DNA of 47,360 nt from NCBI GenBank assembly GCA_002709155.1, contig PAQA01000021.1:22525-69884 (forward strand). Direction: 5' to 3'. The translations under genes and the position numbers were made by a program. The DNA is from Rhodospirillaceae bacterium. GTDB taxonomy: Bacteria > Pseudomonadota > Alphaproteobacteria > Thalassobaculales > Thalassobaculaceae. Of this stretch, positions 37,580 through 45,905 are shown in pieces. The first letter of the stretch is position 1. Every line of letters begins with the position of its first letter. Under the pieces are notes generated by a model. That model did not search any database, was not told the origin of the DNA, and saw only the letters and a program-made list of their open reading frames with translations.

Positions 37580-38362
37580 ATGAGATGGGCACGTATTCAA
37601 ATTGAACATAAGATTTCTCACGGCATTGTTGAGGAAGATCAAATTTGTCTTGTCGAGGGTGGAATATTTGACAAGATAAACCTCACTGGTCAAAAAGTCC
37701 CAATAGAGAACGCTAAATTTCTTACGCCGATTGAGCCAAAAACATTCTATGCTGCTGGGTTAAATTATGCAGAGCATGTCATTGAACAGGCTTTAGCTAA
37801 TAATCGCGAACCTAATATTCCCGACGAGCCTCACATAGGTTATCGTGCGAATAACGCTCTCATTGCACATAATGAACCTATCATTAAACCGTCCGATTCA
37901 TCTGAAGAATTTCAGTACGAGGGCGAATTGGTAGCCATAATTGGGAAAGAAGCAAAGAATATATCTGAGGACGAAGCGCTAGATTTTGTATTCGGATATA
38001 CTATTGGAAACGACGTGAGCGAGCGTAAATGGCAACGTGACGATCGGACGATGTGGAGAGCAAAAAATACAGATACTTTTAAACCAATGGGCCCGTGGAT
38101 CGAAACAGATGTAAATCTTGATAAGTTAATCACTACGGTGCGGTTGAATAATATTGAGACGATTTCTTTTCCTACAAATTCAATGATCTTTGGTGTAGCC
38201 CGTTTCATCAGTGCCATGTCACGGTATTTGACTTTAGTTCCAGGAGATATGATTTGGATGGGAACAGAAGGACATTCTAAAAACATGAAAGCAGGAGACA
38301 TATGCGAAATTGAAATAAATGAAATTGGCACACTCCGAAATCCAATTATTCTGGGGAATTAA
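37580..38362 (+). CDS. Fumarylacetoacetate hydrolase (FAH) family protein
   Basis: A 260-residue FAH-fold enzyme. IEPKTFYAAGLNYAEHVIEQ starts the catalytic domain; metal ligands are Glu114 and Glu116 (YEGELVAIIGK) and Asp145 (TIGNDVSER); SRYLTLVPGDMIWMGTEGHSKNMKAGD is the conserved end region. Family members hydrolyse or decarboxylate beta-keto acids such as acylpyruvates, oxaloacetate or fumarylacetoacetate. Which one applies here cannot be told. ATG 37580 follows an AGGAAACAAGAA site. It stands alone, convergent with the flagellin gene. Confidence 0.93.
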   Translation: MRWARIQIEHKISHGIVEEDQICLVEGGIFDKINLTGQKVPIENAKFLTPIEPKTFYAAGLNYAEHVIEQALANNREPNIPDEPHIGYRANNALIAHNEPIIKPSDSSEEFQYEGELVAIIGKEAKNISEDEALDFVFGYTIGNDVSERKWQRDDRTMWRAKNTDTFKPMGPWIETDVNLDKLITTVRLNNIETISFPTNSMIFGVARFISAMSRYLTLVPGDMIWMGTEGHSKNMKAGDICEIEINEIGTLRNPIILGN

Positions 38363-39540: not shown

Positions 39541-40422
39541 ATGAAATTCGCGCTACATTTTGGAAATTTAATCTTTCCTTCGCCTCATGCAGCAAAAAAA
39601 CTTGCTTTGGCCGCCGAAGCAGCCGGGTTTGAATCAATCATCGCAGTCGAACATGTCGTCATACCAACCGACTATGAAACTAGGTATCCATACAATGAAA
39701 ATGGACGTCTTCCGGGAAATGCGGATATGCCTTGGCCTGACCCCTTATCTTGGTTAACTTTTATTGGTGGAGTAACGACTAAGCTCCGTTTAATAACAGG
39801 CGTATTGGTTCTACCGCAGCGAAATCCCTTAGTCTTAGCAAAACAATTGGCCACAATCGACCATTTAACCGAAGGCCGTTTAGAATTAGGTATTGGAGTC
39901 GGGTGGTTGAAAGAGGAATTCGAGGCAATTGGAGTGCCGTTTAAACGACGCGGAGCTAGAATGGATGAATACATAAAATCAATGCGAGCGCTTTGGGCCC
40001 ACCAGGATGCAAGCTTCGATGGTGAATTTGTATCTTTTAGCCAAATGAATTGCAGTCCAAAACCATATAACGGGCGTGTTCCAATCATAATAGGAGGACA
40101 TTCTCCTAAGGCTGCTCAGAGGGCGGCCCATCTTGGGGATGGTTTTTTCCCGGCTACAGGAACGCAAACAGATATCTCGCCGATTATACAAATAATGCAT
40201 GAGGAAGCTGAAAGAATTGATCGGGACCCCAAAACAATAGAGCTAACAACTGGTTGCCCTGGCGCACTCCCTGGTTCAAAAGTTGATCCATTATCCGCAG
40301 TTGAAGAAAGAATCGCGGCAGGTGTTGACCGTATAGCGCTGCCAGTTAATGCTTTTTCAGATAATATAGAAGAACAACTCACATCTTTCAGTGAAAATGT
40401 TATCCAAAAAATAAATGGATGA
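39541..40422 (+). CDS. LLM-class (luciferase-like, F420/FMN-dependent) oxidoreductase
   Basis: A 293-residue TIM-barrel of the bacterial-luciferase family. FALHFGNLIFPSPHAAKKLALAAEAAGFESIIAVEHVVIP, LITGVLVLPQRNPLVLAKQLATIDHLTEGRLELGIGVGW and VPIIIGGHSPKAAQRAAHLGDGFFP match the TIGR03619-type group, annotated as F420-dependent. Whether this organism makes F420 is not known; FMN is possible. It opens the five-gene plus-strand row with the aconitase-like enzyme, 23 bp before that gene's preferred start. GGGGA lies ten bases before the ATG. Confidence 0.9.
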   Translation: MKFALHFGNLIFPSPHAAKKLALAAEAAGFESIIAVEHVVIPTDYETRYPYNENGRLPGNADMPWPDPLSWLTFIGGVTTKLRLITGVLVLPQRNPLVLAKQLATIDHLTEGRLELGIGVGWLKEEFEAIGVPFKRRGARMDEYIKSMRALWAHQDASFDGEFVSFSQMNCSPKPYNGRVPIIIGGHSPKAAQRAAHLGDGFFPATGTQTDISPIIQIMHEEAERIDRDPKTIELTTGCPGALPGSKVDPLSAVEERIAAGVDRIALPVNAFSDNIEEQLTSFSENVIQKING

Positions 40423-40445
40423 TAAAATTGGATACCGAGCACGCA

Positions 40446-43115
40446 ATGATAGAAAAAAACAATAGTTTCAGAGCCAAAGACCAGCTAACCGTTGGGGCCA
40501 AGTCATATACTTTTTATAATTTATTAAAAGCAGAGAAAAATGGTCTCGTGGGCATCACCAAGCTGCCATACTGCCTCAAAGTACTTTTAGAGAATATGCT
40601 CCGAAAAGAAGATGGAATAAATATAAAGCAGGAGGGTATTAGAACTTTTTCTTCTTGGGTGACGACGGCACACGGGTCCGAAGAGATCAGTTTTTTCCCT
40701 ACTCGGGTTATGGTCCACGATGTATCGGGGATCCCACTACTTGCCGATCTCGCAGCGATGCGGGAAAATATGATCGCATTAAATCAAAACCCAGACCTTT
40801 TAAATCCCATTCGACCTATAGATTTTATTATGGATCATTCGGTCATTGTAGAATTTTCGGGACAGAAGAATGCCGCCAAACAAAATATGCTGGCCGAATA
40901 CACACGAAATGAAGAACGGTATCGCGTAGCTAAATGGGCGCAGAAGGCATTCAAAAACATGCAGGTGATACAACCCGGCCAAGGGATCTGTCATCAAATC
41001 AATCTGGAAACATTAGCCCGAGTAGTTTGGTCTGAAGAAGATAGTGATCACGGCTTAATCGCTTTCCCCGATAGTTTAATCGCTTGTGACAGTCATACAC
41101 CGATGATCAATGCTTTGTCAGTGTTAGGGTGGGGTGTGGGAGGAATAGAAGCACTTTCAGCTATACTCGGCGAGCCTGTAAATTTAATAATGCCTGACGT
41201 TATTGGAATAAGATTAGTTGGAAAACCAAAGGAGGGAATAACCACAACAGATATCGTATTATCGTTGACGCGCGTCCTGCGTGAATACGGCGTTGTACAA
41301 AAATTTACTGAGTTTTTTGGCCCTGGACTTGACGCACTCACTCTCCCAGAACGGGCAACACTGGCAAACATGGCGCCAGAGTATGGTGCAAGTATAAGTT
41401 TTTTTCCAACAGACCAGGAAACGCTGAATTTTCTAAAACTGACGGGGAGAGAAGATAACATACCGCTTGTAGAACACTACAGTAAAGCCCAAGGATTATG
41501 GCGTGACGATACAGTTGAAAGGGTTTATTCGGAAATATTAGAATTCGATCTGGGAAATATAATCGCTTCTGTATCGGGACCCAAGCTACCGCAAATGCAA
41601 GTGCCCTTGGATAAGGCCCACCTGTCAGCATTAGATGCGATCGAGGAAATTGCCCCCGCAAGCCAAAATTGTGCGTTGCACGAGGACGAACGAATACTTC
41701 AAGATGGGGATATTGTGATAGCAGCCATCACCTCTTGCACTAACACGTCAAATCCAATGGTCATGATAGCCGCCGGACTTCTTGCAAAAAAAGCACAGGA
41801 AAAAGGATTAAAGACAAGGCCGTGGGTAAAAACGTCCCTGTCGCCTGGATCACGCGTGGTTGTTGATTATCTCACGCGCGCTGAACTAATGGAGCCGCTT
41901 GAATGGTTGGGTTTTCATGTTGCCGGGTTCGGGTGTATGACTTGTTGCGGCGGGTCGGGACAATTGGACCACTCAATCAGCGCCGACATTCAAAAACGAA
42001 ATCTGAGTGCTGCAGCTGTTTTATCCGGTAATCGGAACTTTGAAGGCAGAATACACCCAGACGTTAAACTTGCGTATTTAGGATCGCCTCCCCTTGTTGT
42101 GGCGTATGCCATACTTGGAAACATTACTAAAGACATCACCTCACAACCACTGGGATATGATGAGCAGAACCACCCCATTTTTCTCAAGGACATCTGGCCT
42201 AGCTCGAAAGAAATAAATGAAGTTGTTTTTAAATACCTTAAACCGGAATTATTTAAAGATGCACAGATAACCTCAACGCAAGAAGATGCACTTTGGAATA
42301 ACGTTTCCTCAAATGAAAAAAGTACCTATGACTGGGATAAAAAAAGTACGTATATTTTGAAACCGCCATTTTTAGAGAAAATAAAAAAATGTAATACACG
42401 AGAAACTATCCATAACGCTGCCATCTTGGCTATCTTTGGTGATAATATAACGACCGACCACATTTCTCCAGGCAATCGAATTTCTATAGATAGCCAGGCG
42501 GGAAAGCACCTTTTGTCTAAGGGTGTAAGACCAGAGGACTTCAGTAGTTACCTGCAGCGACGTGTTAATCATGAGGTTATGATGCGTGGAACATTCGATA
42601 ACGCGCATATCCAAAACGAAATGACCCCTCAGTCTAAAGGCGGATGGACTATACACAGTCCATCTAATGAGCTTACGACCATTTACGAAGCACACTTGCG
42701 CTACGAAGCGGAAAAACGACCATTAATCGTTATCGCTGGCAAGGAATATGGAACAGGTTCATCTCGGGATTGGGCAGCGAAAGGTCCGTATCTTTTGGGG
42801 GTAAGGGCCATTATAGCGGAAAGTTTTGAGAGGATTCACAGAAGTAATCTTATCGGCATGGGAATATTACCGTTGGAATTTCGGGAAGGAGAAACTCGAA
42901 AAACGCTCGGATTAGACGGGACCGAAAAAGTAGATATCTTAGCATCTCAAGATACGATGGATGCAAGAGATTTAATCGATACTCGCTTTATAAAGCCAGA
43001 CGGAGAATTTGTCTCAGCACAGCTCATCTGCCGGCTAGATACTAATAGCGAACTTTCCTGGTTTAAAGCGGGTGGCGTGATGCCGCACATCCTTAACAAA
43101 TTCAAAACCACTTGA
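40446..43115 (+). CDS. Aconitase-family hydro-lyase (AcnA-like) with altered active site
   Basis: 889 residues from ATG 40446, which matches the E. coli AcnA N-terminus; the track's ATG 40419 overlaps the upstream stop. Fe-S ligands C431 (AITSCTNTSNP), C497 and C500 (GFGCMTCCGGSGQL), catalytic D215-H217 (DSHTPM), R530 and R535 (SGNRNFEGR) and GSSRDWAAKG with S772, S773 and R774 are kept. Two sites differ: AcnA TTCIGNSG is here MTCCGGSG, and the substrate Arg of RGTFANIR is His721 (RGTFDNAH). This suggests a substrate other than citrate/isocitrate, unless it is the only aconitase of the cell. It is flanked by an LLM oxidoreductase and a Grx-DinB fusion. Confidence 0.93.
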   Translation: MIEKNNSFRAKDQLTVGAKSYTFYNLLKAEKNGLVGITKLPYCLKVLLENMLRKEDGINIKQEGIRTFSSWVTTAHGSEEISFFPTRVMVHDVSGIPLLADLAAMRENMIALNQNPDLLNPIRPIDFIMDHSVIVEFSGQKNAAKQNMLAEYTRNEERYRVAKWAQKAFKNMQVIQPGQGICHQINLETLARVVWSEEDSDHGLIAFPDSLIACDSHTPMINALSVLGWGVGGIEALSAILGEPVNLIMPDVIGIRLVGKPKEGITTTDIVLSLTRVLREYGVVQKFTEFFGPGLDALTLPERATLANMAPEYGASISFFPTDQETLNFLKLTGREDNIPLVEHYSKAQGLWRDDTVERVYSEILEFDLGNIIASVSGPKLPQMQVPLDKAHLSALDAIEEIAPASQNCALHEDERILQDGDIVIAAITSCTNTSNPMVMIAAGLLAKKAQEKGLKTRPWVKTSLSPGSRVVVDYLTRAELMEPLEWLGFHVAGFGCMTCCGGSGQLDHSISADIQKRNLSAAAVLSGNRNFEGRIHPDVKLAYLGSPPLVVAYAILGNITKDITSQPLGYDEQNHPIFLKDIWPSSKEINEVVFKYLKPELFKDAQITSTQEDALWNNVSSNEKSTYDWDKKSTYILKPPFLEKIKKCNTRETIHNAAILAIFGDNITTDHISPGNRISIDSQAGKHLLSKGVRPEDFSSYLQRRVNHEVMMRGTFDNAHIQNEMTPQSKGGWTIHSPSNELTTIYEAHLRYEAEKRPLIVIAGKEYGTGSSRDWAAKGPYLLGVRAIIAESFERIHRSNLIGMGILPLEFREGETRKTLGLDGTEKVDILASQDTMDARDLIDTRFIKPDGEFVSAQLICRLDTNSELSWFKAGGVMPHILNKFKTT

Positions 43116-43241
43116 TGGTTTGATTTGTTATCGACCATATACCTATTAGTTAACGGTTTTATATCTCTTGGCAGTTGCGTTTTGTCTGCGTTATAATTCT
43201 AATATACGCATTCTCAATAGTTTTCGAAAATAGGAGTTTAC

Positions 43242-44111
43242 ATGAGTAGCCTGGAAGAGGCTGGGTCACCGGAAAATATGACTAAACCTGTTAAAGTGTA
43301 TTGGCAACCCGGGTGCTCAAGCTGTCTAAAAACGAAGGAGTTCCTTATTGATAACGGGATATCTTTTGAGTCCGTCAATGTTCTAGACGATGAAAAAGGG
43401 TTCGCGGAATTACAATCTTTAGGCATAAAGCTGGTGCCCATTGTCGCAAGAGGCAGCTCTTGGGCAAACGGCGCTGTTTTTAGAGATGTGGCTAAAGTTG
43501 CCGGATTCGAATATGGCGCACATAAAATGCTGGCACCAGAAAGTATAAAAGATAAAGTTTTAATGATTCTCGATGCCGCACAAAGATATCTGCAACAAAT
43601 TCCTGACTCTCAACTTGATGAGGTTTTACCAGGACGCCCTCGTTCGTATAGACAACTCGTCTATCATGTTTTTGACATTCCCAAGGTTTTTTTGGATAGA
43701 GTAGAATATGATGCACCGTACACATACGAAGCACTAAAATCGATTTTGCCAGACACCATGACAACAAAAAACGACTTAATGAATTACGGTGCCAGCAATA
43801 GAGCGCGCTTCCAAACCTGGTGGGAAAGGGAAGGATTTTCTACTGACTTCGAACAGCCGGGAAAAGTTTACTACGGTGATGTCACATTACATGAAGTTTT
43901 GGAGCGAACTGGATGGCATTCCGGACAGCATACAAGGCAAATAATACTAATGCTTCGTGAAAAGTTAGGAATCGAACCCAATGGTCCAATAACAGATTTA
44001 GACTTAAGTGGTTTGCCTTTACCAAAAAATGTCTGGGATAATGAACGCTCCTTTGATGAGGCTGCATTCGCCGAAAAAGCCGAGACTTGGCAAGATGCAA
44101 AGACACGATAG
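43242..44111 (+). CDS. Glutaredoxin-DinB-fold fusion protein
   Basis: A 289-residue two-domain protein. Residues about 17-95 are a glutaredoxin fold with dithiol motif CSSC (C25, C28) and the cis-Pro segment KLVPIVA. Residues about 100-289 are a DinB/YfiT-like four-helix domain with metal triad H142 (LVYHVFDIP) and H226-x3-H230 (GWHSGQHTRQI). DinB-fold relatives include thiol-dependent transferases and isomerases. The fusion suggests a glutathione-linked metal enzyme with its own redox module; this is inference. AGGAG lies eight bases before the ATG. It lies between the hydro-lyase and the AtuA-like gene. Confidence 0.88.
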   Translation: MSSLEEAGSPENMTKPVKVYWQPGCSSCLKTKEFLIDNGISFESVNVLDDEKGFAELQSLGIKLVPIVARGSSWANGAVFRDVAKVAGFEYGAHKMLAPESIKDKVLMILDAAQRYLQQIPDSQLDEVLPGRPRSYRQLVYHVFDIPKVFLDRVEYDAPYTYEALKSILPDTMTTKNDLMNYGASNRARFQTWWEREGFSTDFEQPGKVYYGDVTLHEVLERTGWHSGQHTRQIILMLREKLGIEPNGPITDLDLSGLPLPKNVWDNERSFDEAAFAEKAETWQDAKTR

Positions 44112-44207: not shown

Positions 44208-45578
44208 ATGAAACCAATCAGAATTATGGCAGCCTCAGGGATGCTGGGCTATGGATTTACAGAAGAAGCTTTTAAAAATGGCTTATCAATGGGCCTTGAT
44301 TTAATAGCATGCGACGCAGGCTCAGCTGATCCAGGTCCATATTATTTGGGAAGTGGCACGGCGTTCGTTTCACGTTTAGCGGTCAAGAGAGACCTTGGAC
44401 TAATGGTTAAAGGCGGAGTGGAGGCTGGTGTTCCTGTTTTTATTGGTTCAGCCGGTGGCAGTGGATCTAATCCCCAAGTTGACTGGACATTGGATATTCT
44501 GCGAGAAATATGCGAAGAACAGAATATCACTCCAAAGGTCGTTGTATTGAGGAGTGAGATATCGAAGGAAAAACTAAAATCAAAAATTGAAAAAGATAAG
44601 ATAACACCGCTAGGACCAATCGCTCCGCTGACGATCGATGACGCGGATAACAGTCATAGAGTAGTTGCCATGATGGGGATAGAGCCCTTTCAGGAAGCAC
44701 TTGAAAGAGGTGCTCAAGTTGTAATCGCTGGCAGATCAAGTGACGCAGCCATTTATGCTTCTGTTCCTCTGCGGCTCGGCGCCGACCCTGGACTATCGTG
44801 GCATATGGGAAAGATAATAGAGTGTGGTGCGCAAGTAATTGAGCCAAGAGAAGGTCAGGATTGTGTTATTGGAACTATTTATGAGGACCATTTTACAATT
44901 GAACCCGCACATCCAGACAGACGATGCACGCGGACGCGCGTTGCAGCGCACACACTTTATGAGAACCCCAGCCCTTATCACCTAAAAGAACCGAATGGCT
45001 TGTTAAATACAAAAGCAGCAGTTTTTACGCAAACAGACGATCGAACTGTGAAGGTTTCAGGCAGTCTCTGGGAGCCATCCGATAAATACACCGTAAAATT
45101 GGAAGGAGTAAGAGAGCTTGGCTATCGGACGATATTCATGGCTGGAATTCGTGATCCAATCCTTGTCTCAACGATAAGCGACTTTATACAATCTTGCCGC
45201 TCCCGAATTTCAAAAGATGTTTTGGCCCTAGGCGTAGAAGAAAATGAGTACACGTTGGAAATTAAAGTGTATGGACAAGATGCCGTGATGGGTTCTAACG
45301 AACCCGTAAAAAACAGCCAGGCTCATGAATTAGCGGTCCTTGTGGATGTCATTGCTCCAACAGAGGATATAAGTCGTGCTGTTTGTGCTAAGGCGCGCTA
45401 TAGTCTTCTTCATACAGACTTTCCGGGAAGGATGTGTATTTCCGGTAATCTCGCAATTCCATTTTCCCCATCAGACTTTTCTGCGGGAAATGTTTATGAG
45501 TTTAATATATGGCACGTTATGGAATGCGATAACCCATTAGAGCCTGTTACCATCGAAAAAGTAGATCTTTTCAATTAA
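44208..45578 (+). CDS. AtuA-like DUF1446 protein (acyclic terpene utilisation family)
   Basis: A 456-residue protein. RIMAASGMLGYGFTEEAF, CDAGSADPGPYYLGSGTAFVSRLAVKRDL, PVFIGSAGGSGSNPQVDWTL and VIAGRSSDAAIYASVPLRLGADPG are the DUF1446 signature stretches. AtuA is needed for citronellol/geraniol breakdown in Pseudomonas, but its reaction is not known to me. Here no other atu gene (carboxylase, geranyl-CoA hydratase) is present, so a terpene role is doubtful. The DUF4387 gene follows 15 bp later, the usual partner, which in many proteins is the C-terminal domain of AtuA. Confidence 0.9.
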   Translation: MKPIRIMAASGMLGYGFTEEAFKNGLSMGLDLIACDAGSADPGPYYLGSGTAFVSRLAVKRDLGLMVKGGVEAGVPVFIGSAGGSGSNPQVDWTLDILREICEEQNITPKVVVLRSEISKEKLKSKIEKDKITPLGPIAPLTIDDADNSHRVVAMMGIEPFQEALERGAQVVIAGRSSDAAIYASVPLRLGADPGLSWHMGKIIECGAQVIEPREGQDCVIGTIYEDHFTIEPAHPDRRCTRTRVAAHTLYENPSPYHLKEPNGLLNTKAAVFTQTDDRTVKVSGSLWEPSDKYTVKLEGVRELGYRTIFMAGIRDPILVSTISDFIQSCRSRISKDVLALGVEENEYTLEIKVYGQDAVMGSNEPVKNSQAHELAVLVDVIAPTEDISRAVCAKARYSLLHTDFPGRMCISGNLAIPFSPSDFSAGNVYEFNIWHVMECDNPLEPVTIEKVDLFN

Positions 45579-45593
45579 AAGGGTAAATTGACG

Positions 45594-45905
45594 ATGACTA
45601 AGTTAAGGGATCTGGCAAAAGTTATACGATCAAAAAATGCAGGTGCCTTGTTATTAACACTCGACATCATGTTTGAAGATGAAACCACCTACAAAAAAGT
45701 CTGTAATTCTGGAGCGTTGTCCCCTAGAACCCTGGCGCCTTTGTATAATGTTAGTGATAATCAAATAGAGGTCATACCATTTGATGTAGCGCTTGCCATT
45801 AAGATCACTTTGCCCAGGTCTATCCCTGCAGGGTCACCAGGCGAATCCGACGTCTATGGAGCGCAACAGCACGCCCCATTAATGGATATCGAGATCCCCA
45901 TTTGA
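45594..45905 (+). CDS. DUF4387 (AtuA C-terminal-like) protein
   Basis: 103 residues from ATG 45594 (MTKLRDLAKVIRSKNAGALLLTLDIMF); the track begins two codons earlier at TTG. LRDLAKVIRSKNAG and SLPRSIPAGSPGESDVYGAQQHAP-like elements (here LPRSIPAGSPGESDVYGAQQHAP) identify the DUF4387/AtuA C-terminal domain. It presumably forms a complex with the AtuA-like protein encoded 15 bp upstream. AAAAGGG lies about ten bases before the ATG. It is the last gene of the row. Confidence 0.88.
   Translation: MTKLRDLAKVIRSKNAGALLLTLDIMFEDETTYKKVCNSGALSPRTLAPLYNVSDNQIEVIPFDVALAIKITLPRSIPAGSPGESDVYGAQQHAPLMDIEIPI

Follow-up and report, generated by a model that had tools for sequence, protein, structure and literature searches.

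A glutaredoxin-DinB fusion protein of a SAR116-type alphaproteobacterium, probable cysteine form of a family with selenocysteine-containing relatives

The gene studied here, located in a 47,360-nucleotide stretch of alphaproteobacterial DNA (hereafter the window), encodes a glutaredoxin (Grx) joined to a DinB-fold domain. We consider it probable that the protein belongs to a family of two-domain enzymes and is its Cys form, with relatives that carry selenocysteine (Sec) at the position of C25, and that it acts by a metal-assisted mechanism. From comparison of the homologs, one branch of the family appears to be a UxxC selenoprotein, with the window protein, from a SAR116-type genome, as the Cys form. 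The UGA codon of this branch is read as Sec because of its position, the Sec machinery (SelB and tRNA-Sec) in the genomes, a SECIS-type hairpin and constraint on synonymous sites. More tentatively, the selenol or thiol of the Grx domain and a metal bound by the three DinB histidines may form one active site, in an uncatalogued class of selenoenzymes. If this single composite site is real, a DinB scaffold has been recruited for redox chemistry, and the window gene encodes the cysteine form. The coordinates of the features are collected in Table 1.

Table 1. Features of the fusion gene and its surroundings, in window positions
Feature	Position	Strand	Basis or remark
FAH-family hydrolase	37580-38362		upstream of fusion
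LLM-type oxidoreductase	39541-40422		upstream of fusion
AcnA aconitase	40419-43115		upstream of fusion
Sigma-70-like promoter candidate, TTGGCA-18-TATAAT	43168-43197	+	consensus match 11/12
Shine-Dalgarno sequence AGGAG	43232-43236	+	5 nt 5' of the fusion-gene ATG, read directly
Grx-DinB fusion gene	43242-44111	+	intact ORF, 289 aa, ATG start, 0 internal stops
Glutaredoxin domain, residues 17-68	43290-43445	+	PF00462 above gathering score
TGC codon of C25, predicted nucleophile	43314-43316	+	sequence; UGA (Sec) in 18 relatives
TGT codon of C28, resolving cysteine	43323-43325	+	invariant in Cys and Sec forms
DinB_2 domain, residues 112-234	43575-43943	+	PF12867 above gathering score
H142, predicted metal ligand, bundle helix 2	43665-43667	+	invariant in 40/40
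H226-x3-H230, predicted metal ligands, bundle helix 4	43917-43931	+	invariant in 40/40
AtuA-like (PF07287) and DUF4387 (PF14330) genes	44208-45905		directly downstream of fusion

An earlier note on this DNA had described a single gene for a dithiol glutaredoxin with C25-x-x-C28, fused in a proteobacterium to a DinB-fold domain with H142 and H226-x3-H230. The residues are numbered correctly, and the description is borne out by Pfam and by conservation: the Grx match has an E value of 2.7e-9 (37.6 bits, cut-off 22.9), and the DinB fold, expected within residues 100-289, is matched by DinB_2 with an E value of 1.1e-8 (36.0 bits, cut-off 24.8). That a frameshift or chance had joined two genes, which would have undone that description, is ruled out by the intact reading frame and by the same full-length order in 27 homologous loci and in other genomes. 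The promoter candidate lies 44 nt upstream of the gene, and we regard it as suggestive, since promoter-like sites occur in this region at about the chance number (3 observed vs. 2.5).

The AlphaFold2 (AF2) model of the protein (pLDDT 85.9, pTM 0.85) consists of a thioredoxin-like N-terminal domain, with strands and helices at residues 18-87, and a four-helix DinB bundle (helices 99-119, 136-156, 176-196 and 216-241), in which the predicted metal ligands sit on the second (H142) and fourth (H226 and H230) helices. The best Foldseek matches of the C-terminal part are DinB DR0053 (6iz2, TM 0.82 of target) and YfiT (1rxq), and those of the N-terminal part are cGrx1 (7c10), NrdH and BC3987; a viral structure library gave redoxin matches only. 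Dithiol cGrx1 (7c10) is also the best PDB sequence match of the protein. The Grx domain misses the cut-offs of the classical glutathione-dependent Grx3 family (TIGR02181 GRX_bact, 17.8 vs. 90 bits) and of NrdH (TIGR02194, 33.5 vs. 85.75 bits), and by score it is nearest to YruB/NrdH-type redoxins, which need not use glutathione.

The same domain order proved to recur widely. A contig scan identified 27 genome-contig loci with the same full-length protein at 62-95% identity, from SAR116 (95% identity), Rhodospirillales, Hyphomicrobiales and some gammaproteobacterial MAGs. A profile built from these loci matches 33 of the 385 genomes of the class, in one of which (G552) the match covers the Grx part only, and another 31 or so genomes of the class share the full-length order. 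Plasmid copies were found with tblastn in Roseomonas, Variovorax, Caballeronia and Rhizobium leguminosarum; where annotated, they are mostly named "DinB family protein" or "glutaredoxin domain-containing protein". The occurrence outside the Alphaproteobacteria is based on contig and plasmid matches. In R. leguminosarum (L080:9010-10585) the 3' end of the fusion shares about 80 bases with a fragment annotated as tannase/feruloyl esterase, which suggests a doubtful annotation or gene decay. Among 40 diverse members, the Grx domain is recovered in all and DinB_2 in 34 (E<=0.001). Invariant in these 40 are W21, C25, S27, C28, K32, S44, G61, P66 and H142, as well as G212, R222, H226, Q229, H230, R232, Q233 and L258, a set that takes in both the redox motif and all three histidines predicted to bind metal.

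In 18 loci from other alphaproteobacteria (L082-L099) the reading frame contains one TGA, exactly at the codon for C25, and is otherwise open; the site typically reads V-F-W-Q-P-G-U-T/S-S-C-L. The window gene has TGC as codon 25 and no in-frame UGA; over 72 homolog sequences the codon is TGT in 29, TGC in 25 and TGA in 18. The UGA always falls on the Grx nucleophile, giving UxxC, and conservation is high on both sides of it over the full length. As ordinary gene calling stops at the UGA and leaves the DinB half, genes of this form are easily missed, and those at the 18 loci are probably mis-annotated as short DinB proteins.

Downstream of the UGA, these copies share a hairpin with a 7-bp stem, a 5-nt CGUGN loop and a spacing of 36 nt from UGA to loop. 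All 18 have six or seven of the seven pairs together with the CGUG loop, whereas the 54 Cys copies have a mean of 2.5 pairs and in no case this loop. In an alignment of 17 sequences (A3), 95.8% of the cells are paired and the covariation score is 0.329, compared with maxima of 54.6% and 0.084 in slid controls; the covariation also exceeds all 500 shuffles. Codon-third positions 36, 39, 42 and 45 are invariant in 18/18 Sec copies and free in the Cys copies. The bacterial SECIS model has a loop of 3-9 nt, a stem of 4-16 bp, a spacing of 16-37 nt, a G within the first two loop positions (frequently with G or U after it) and an energy limit of -7.5 kcal/mol (PMC13188914). In loop, stem, G position and spacing the hairpin fits this model, with a 5-nt loop, a stem of 6-7 bp and the second loop position occupied by a G that precedes a U. 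Taken alone, the hairpin passes the energy limit in 15 of the 18 copies (the weaker ones being L098 at -5.7, L090 at -7.3 and L097 at -7.1 kcal/mol), and the region of UGA plus 51 nt does so in all of them. RNAalifold over short windows near the UGA gave nothing; the stem is located further downstream, in columns 33-51 of UGA+51. Single-sequence folding z-scores did not separate Sec from Cys copies (p 0.21), but the pair count of the fixed stem does. A candidate proximal stem directly after the UGA (GAGxx-CAAGGA-xxCUC) was seen by eye only.

SelB is present above the curated cut-off in 17/18 UGA genomes, in 3/13 Cys-only fusion genomes and in 53/385 genomes of the class (Fisher, p 6e-5 vs. Cys-only and 3e-15 vs. 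class), an association that is not independent of phylogeny, because the state changes are few and the Sec and Cys copies are clustered. The UGA genome without a SelB match (G443) is 77% complete. Of the 20 SelB-positive fusion genomes, 19 have a tRNA-Sec match (66-78 bits), and no other genome searched has one; 16 of the 17 SelB-positive UGA genomes have one above 65 bits. The window genome (G000, 71% complete) has no SelB above the cut-off, and all 36 rows of the window clade are Cys (support 100/99). The Sec copies lie in another part of the tree, interspersed with Cys copies and with at least three changes of state, and a sign test of Sec against SelB along the tree has only two to three independent pairs. 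One genome (G704) carries both a Sec (L099) and a Cys (L100) paralog.

The genes upstream of the fusion in the window, of which the FAH and LLM ones were named from their sequences rather than by profile search, possibly represent an organic-acid catabolic neighbourhood. The downstream pair of AtuA-like and DUF4387 genes also adjoins the fusion in SAR116 contigs and at L012, L016 and L018, and acnA and AtuA are each near the fusion in 6 loci. TauD, CoA-transferase III, amidase, PEP mutase/ICL, TPP enzymes and TctC are each found near it in a few loci; gamma-glutamyltranspeptidase and isochorismatase are also among the neighbours in relatives. The search for a conserved operon found no neighbour that is kept throughout the family, and as the neighbours vary we claim only a general catabolic setting. 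Next to the Sec copy at L096 lies a gene for a protein of 559 aa that has an MsrA (PMSR) domain at its C-terminal end (L096:8832-10508).

With respect to the thiol, GshB is encoded in 31 of the 34 fusion-bearing genomes examined, the window genome included, and BshC in none of the 34, so glutathione is the likely thiol of these cells, and the fusion enzyme itself probably uses it. This agrees with the glutathione-based function proposed in the earlier note; what speaks against that proposal is the Grx domain, which scores far below the Grx3 and NrdH cut-offs. The note had known of no characterized member of the family, and none was found. C25 and C28 are the only cysteines of the protein, and the electrons must therefore come from an external donor. 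The fusion protein also contains the single DinB_2 domain found in the window genome (71% complete).

We infer a metal-assisted enzyme of thiol/selenol redox chemistry or thiol transfer, acting on an electrophilic or disulfide substrate. In the most likely mechanism, the three DinB histidines would bind a divalent metal, and this site would bind and activate either the substrate or a low-molecular-weight thiol, the latter probably being glutathione. The nearby C25, or Sec in the relatives, would then attack as a low-pKa thiolate or selenolate, C28 would resolve the resulting disulfide or selenodisulfide, and glutathione or thioredoxin would re-reduce the enzyme. The net reaction would use a thiol to reduce or de-conjugate an organic electrophile or a disulfide, as a step in catabolism or detoxification.

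This reading has to be weighed against others. The protein could be a glutathione-dependent DinB S-transferase or a cis-trans isomerase, similar to mycothiol maleylpyruvate isomerase, encoded in a catabolic operon; the Grx domain would then merely keep the thiol cofactor or the substrate reduced. The DinB fold with its histidine triad, the glutathione synthesis gene in the genome, the catabolic genes close to the window gene (that of the FAH-family hydrolase among them), and the isochorismatase, amidase and Asp/Glu racemase that surround the Roseomonas copy are all consistent with such an enzyme. We nevertheless think it rather unlikely, both as to the enzyme type and as to this role for the Grx domain, as the selection of Sec at the Grx nucleophile points to a residue that is catalytically central rather than serving housekeeping, and the FAH neighbour is restricted to the SAR116-like group and its nearest kin. 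The emphasis may also lie entirely on the redoxin: the protein would then be a reductase, of the thiol-disulfide or peroxide type, whose DinB domain only docks a partner protein and holds no catalytic metal. Sec at the nucleophile of UxxC is a typical feature of redox enzymes (PMC13188914), and one Sec copy has an MsrA-domain protein next to it, MsrA being reduced by a known selenoprotein glutaredoxin (Kim 2011, as cited in PMC13188914); yet three histidines that are invariant in 40/40 members are unneeded for docking alone, and we judge this explanation improbable.

A last alternative is that the UGA codons are ordinary stops, owing to pseudogenes, to errors in sequencing or to a DinB part that is expressed separately, in which case there would be no selenoprotein branch; in our opinion this is highly improbable. 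Some of the frames could indeed restart downstream of the UGA, but the same codon is found in 18 genomes with at least eight family codes and is flanked on both sides by conservation over the full length, and the covarying SECIS-type hairpin and the frozen synonymous sites are confined to the UGA copies. The presence of SelB in 17/18 of these genomes likewise argues against a stop. Reading of UGA as Trp (code 4) was ruled out: UGA is the normal terminal stop in 9/18 of the genes, and there is thus no general reassignment.

The analysis adds a probable selenoprotein family to the alphaproteobacteria and brings DinB transferases and glutaredoxins, two thiol systems, together in one chain. The fusion offers a concrete handle on the roles of DinB-fold proteins in glutathione-using bacteria, and the natural Cys/Sec pairs, both forms of which occur in G704, allow a direct test of what the selenol does. 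The Grx-DinB fusion is absent from the 119 families of the 2026 prokaryotic selenoprotein catalogue (PMC13188914), and the word "DinB" does not occur in PMC13188914, PMC9312934, PMC2398784, PMC1088965 or PMC12013277. A text search of the literature for the combination of Grx and DinB, with subscription papers mostly outside its scope, gave nothing relevant. Provisionally, the Grx-DinB selenoprotein family is therefore new to the catalogues checked, and it may account for some of the "Grx-like" UxxC sequences that ocean surveys have counted.

Several known systems share parts of this architecture. The DinB/STL thiol transferases (BstA/YfiT of Bacillus and Staphylococcus, Mst of mycobacteria) have the DinB bundle and the histidine triad in common with the fusion. 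Those reported are stand-alone proteins that use bacillithiol, mycothiol or glutathione, in contrast to the fusion, which has a redoxin in front and, in one branch, a Sec nucleophile. As DinB-family transferases using each of these three thiols have been reported (Newton 2011, as cited in PMC4360819 and PMC10950700), a glutathione DinB transferase is not in itself new. Selenoprotein glutaredoxins are also known (PF00462, UxxC; catalogue entry WP_010943784.1) (PMC13188914). They share, as in clostridial cGrx1, the Grx fold and the Sec or Cys nucleophile of UxxC/CxxC; however, they are single-domain proteins, whereas the fusion adds a predicted DinB metal domain behind the redoxin and has Cys in the window copy. 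The Uxx-star/HUGP-GUXX-star families (NF041212, NF045501) contain a distantly related Grx-like domain with Sec forms and one known fusion type, but the Grx-DinB fusion scores far below their cut-offs (19-37 vs. 66-325 bits) and their partner domain is another. A parallel in logic is the peroxiredoxin-glutaredoxin hybrid of Haemophilus, HI0572 (1nm3), to which the Grx part has a sequence match and in which a glutaredoxin is likewise fused to the enzyme that it possibly serves, the differences being that the partner is a peroxiredoxin and that the order of the domains is reversed relative to Grx-DinB.
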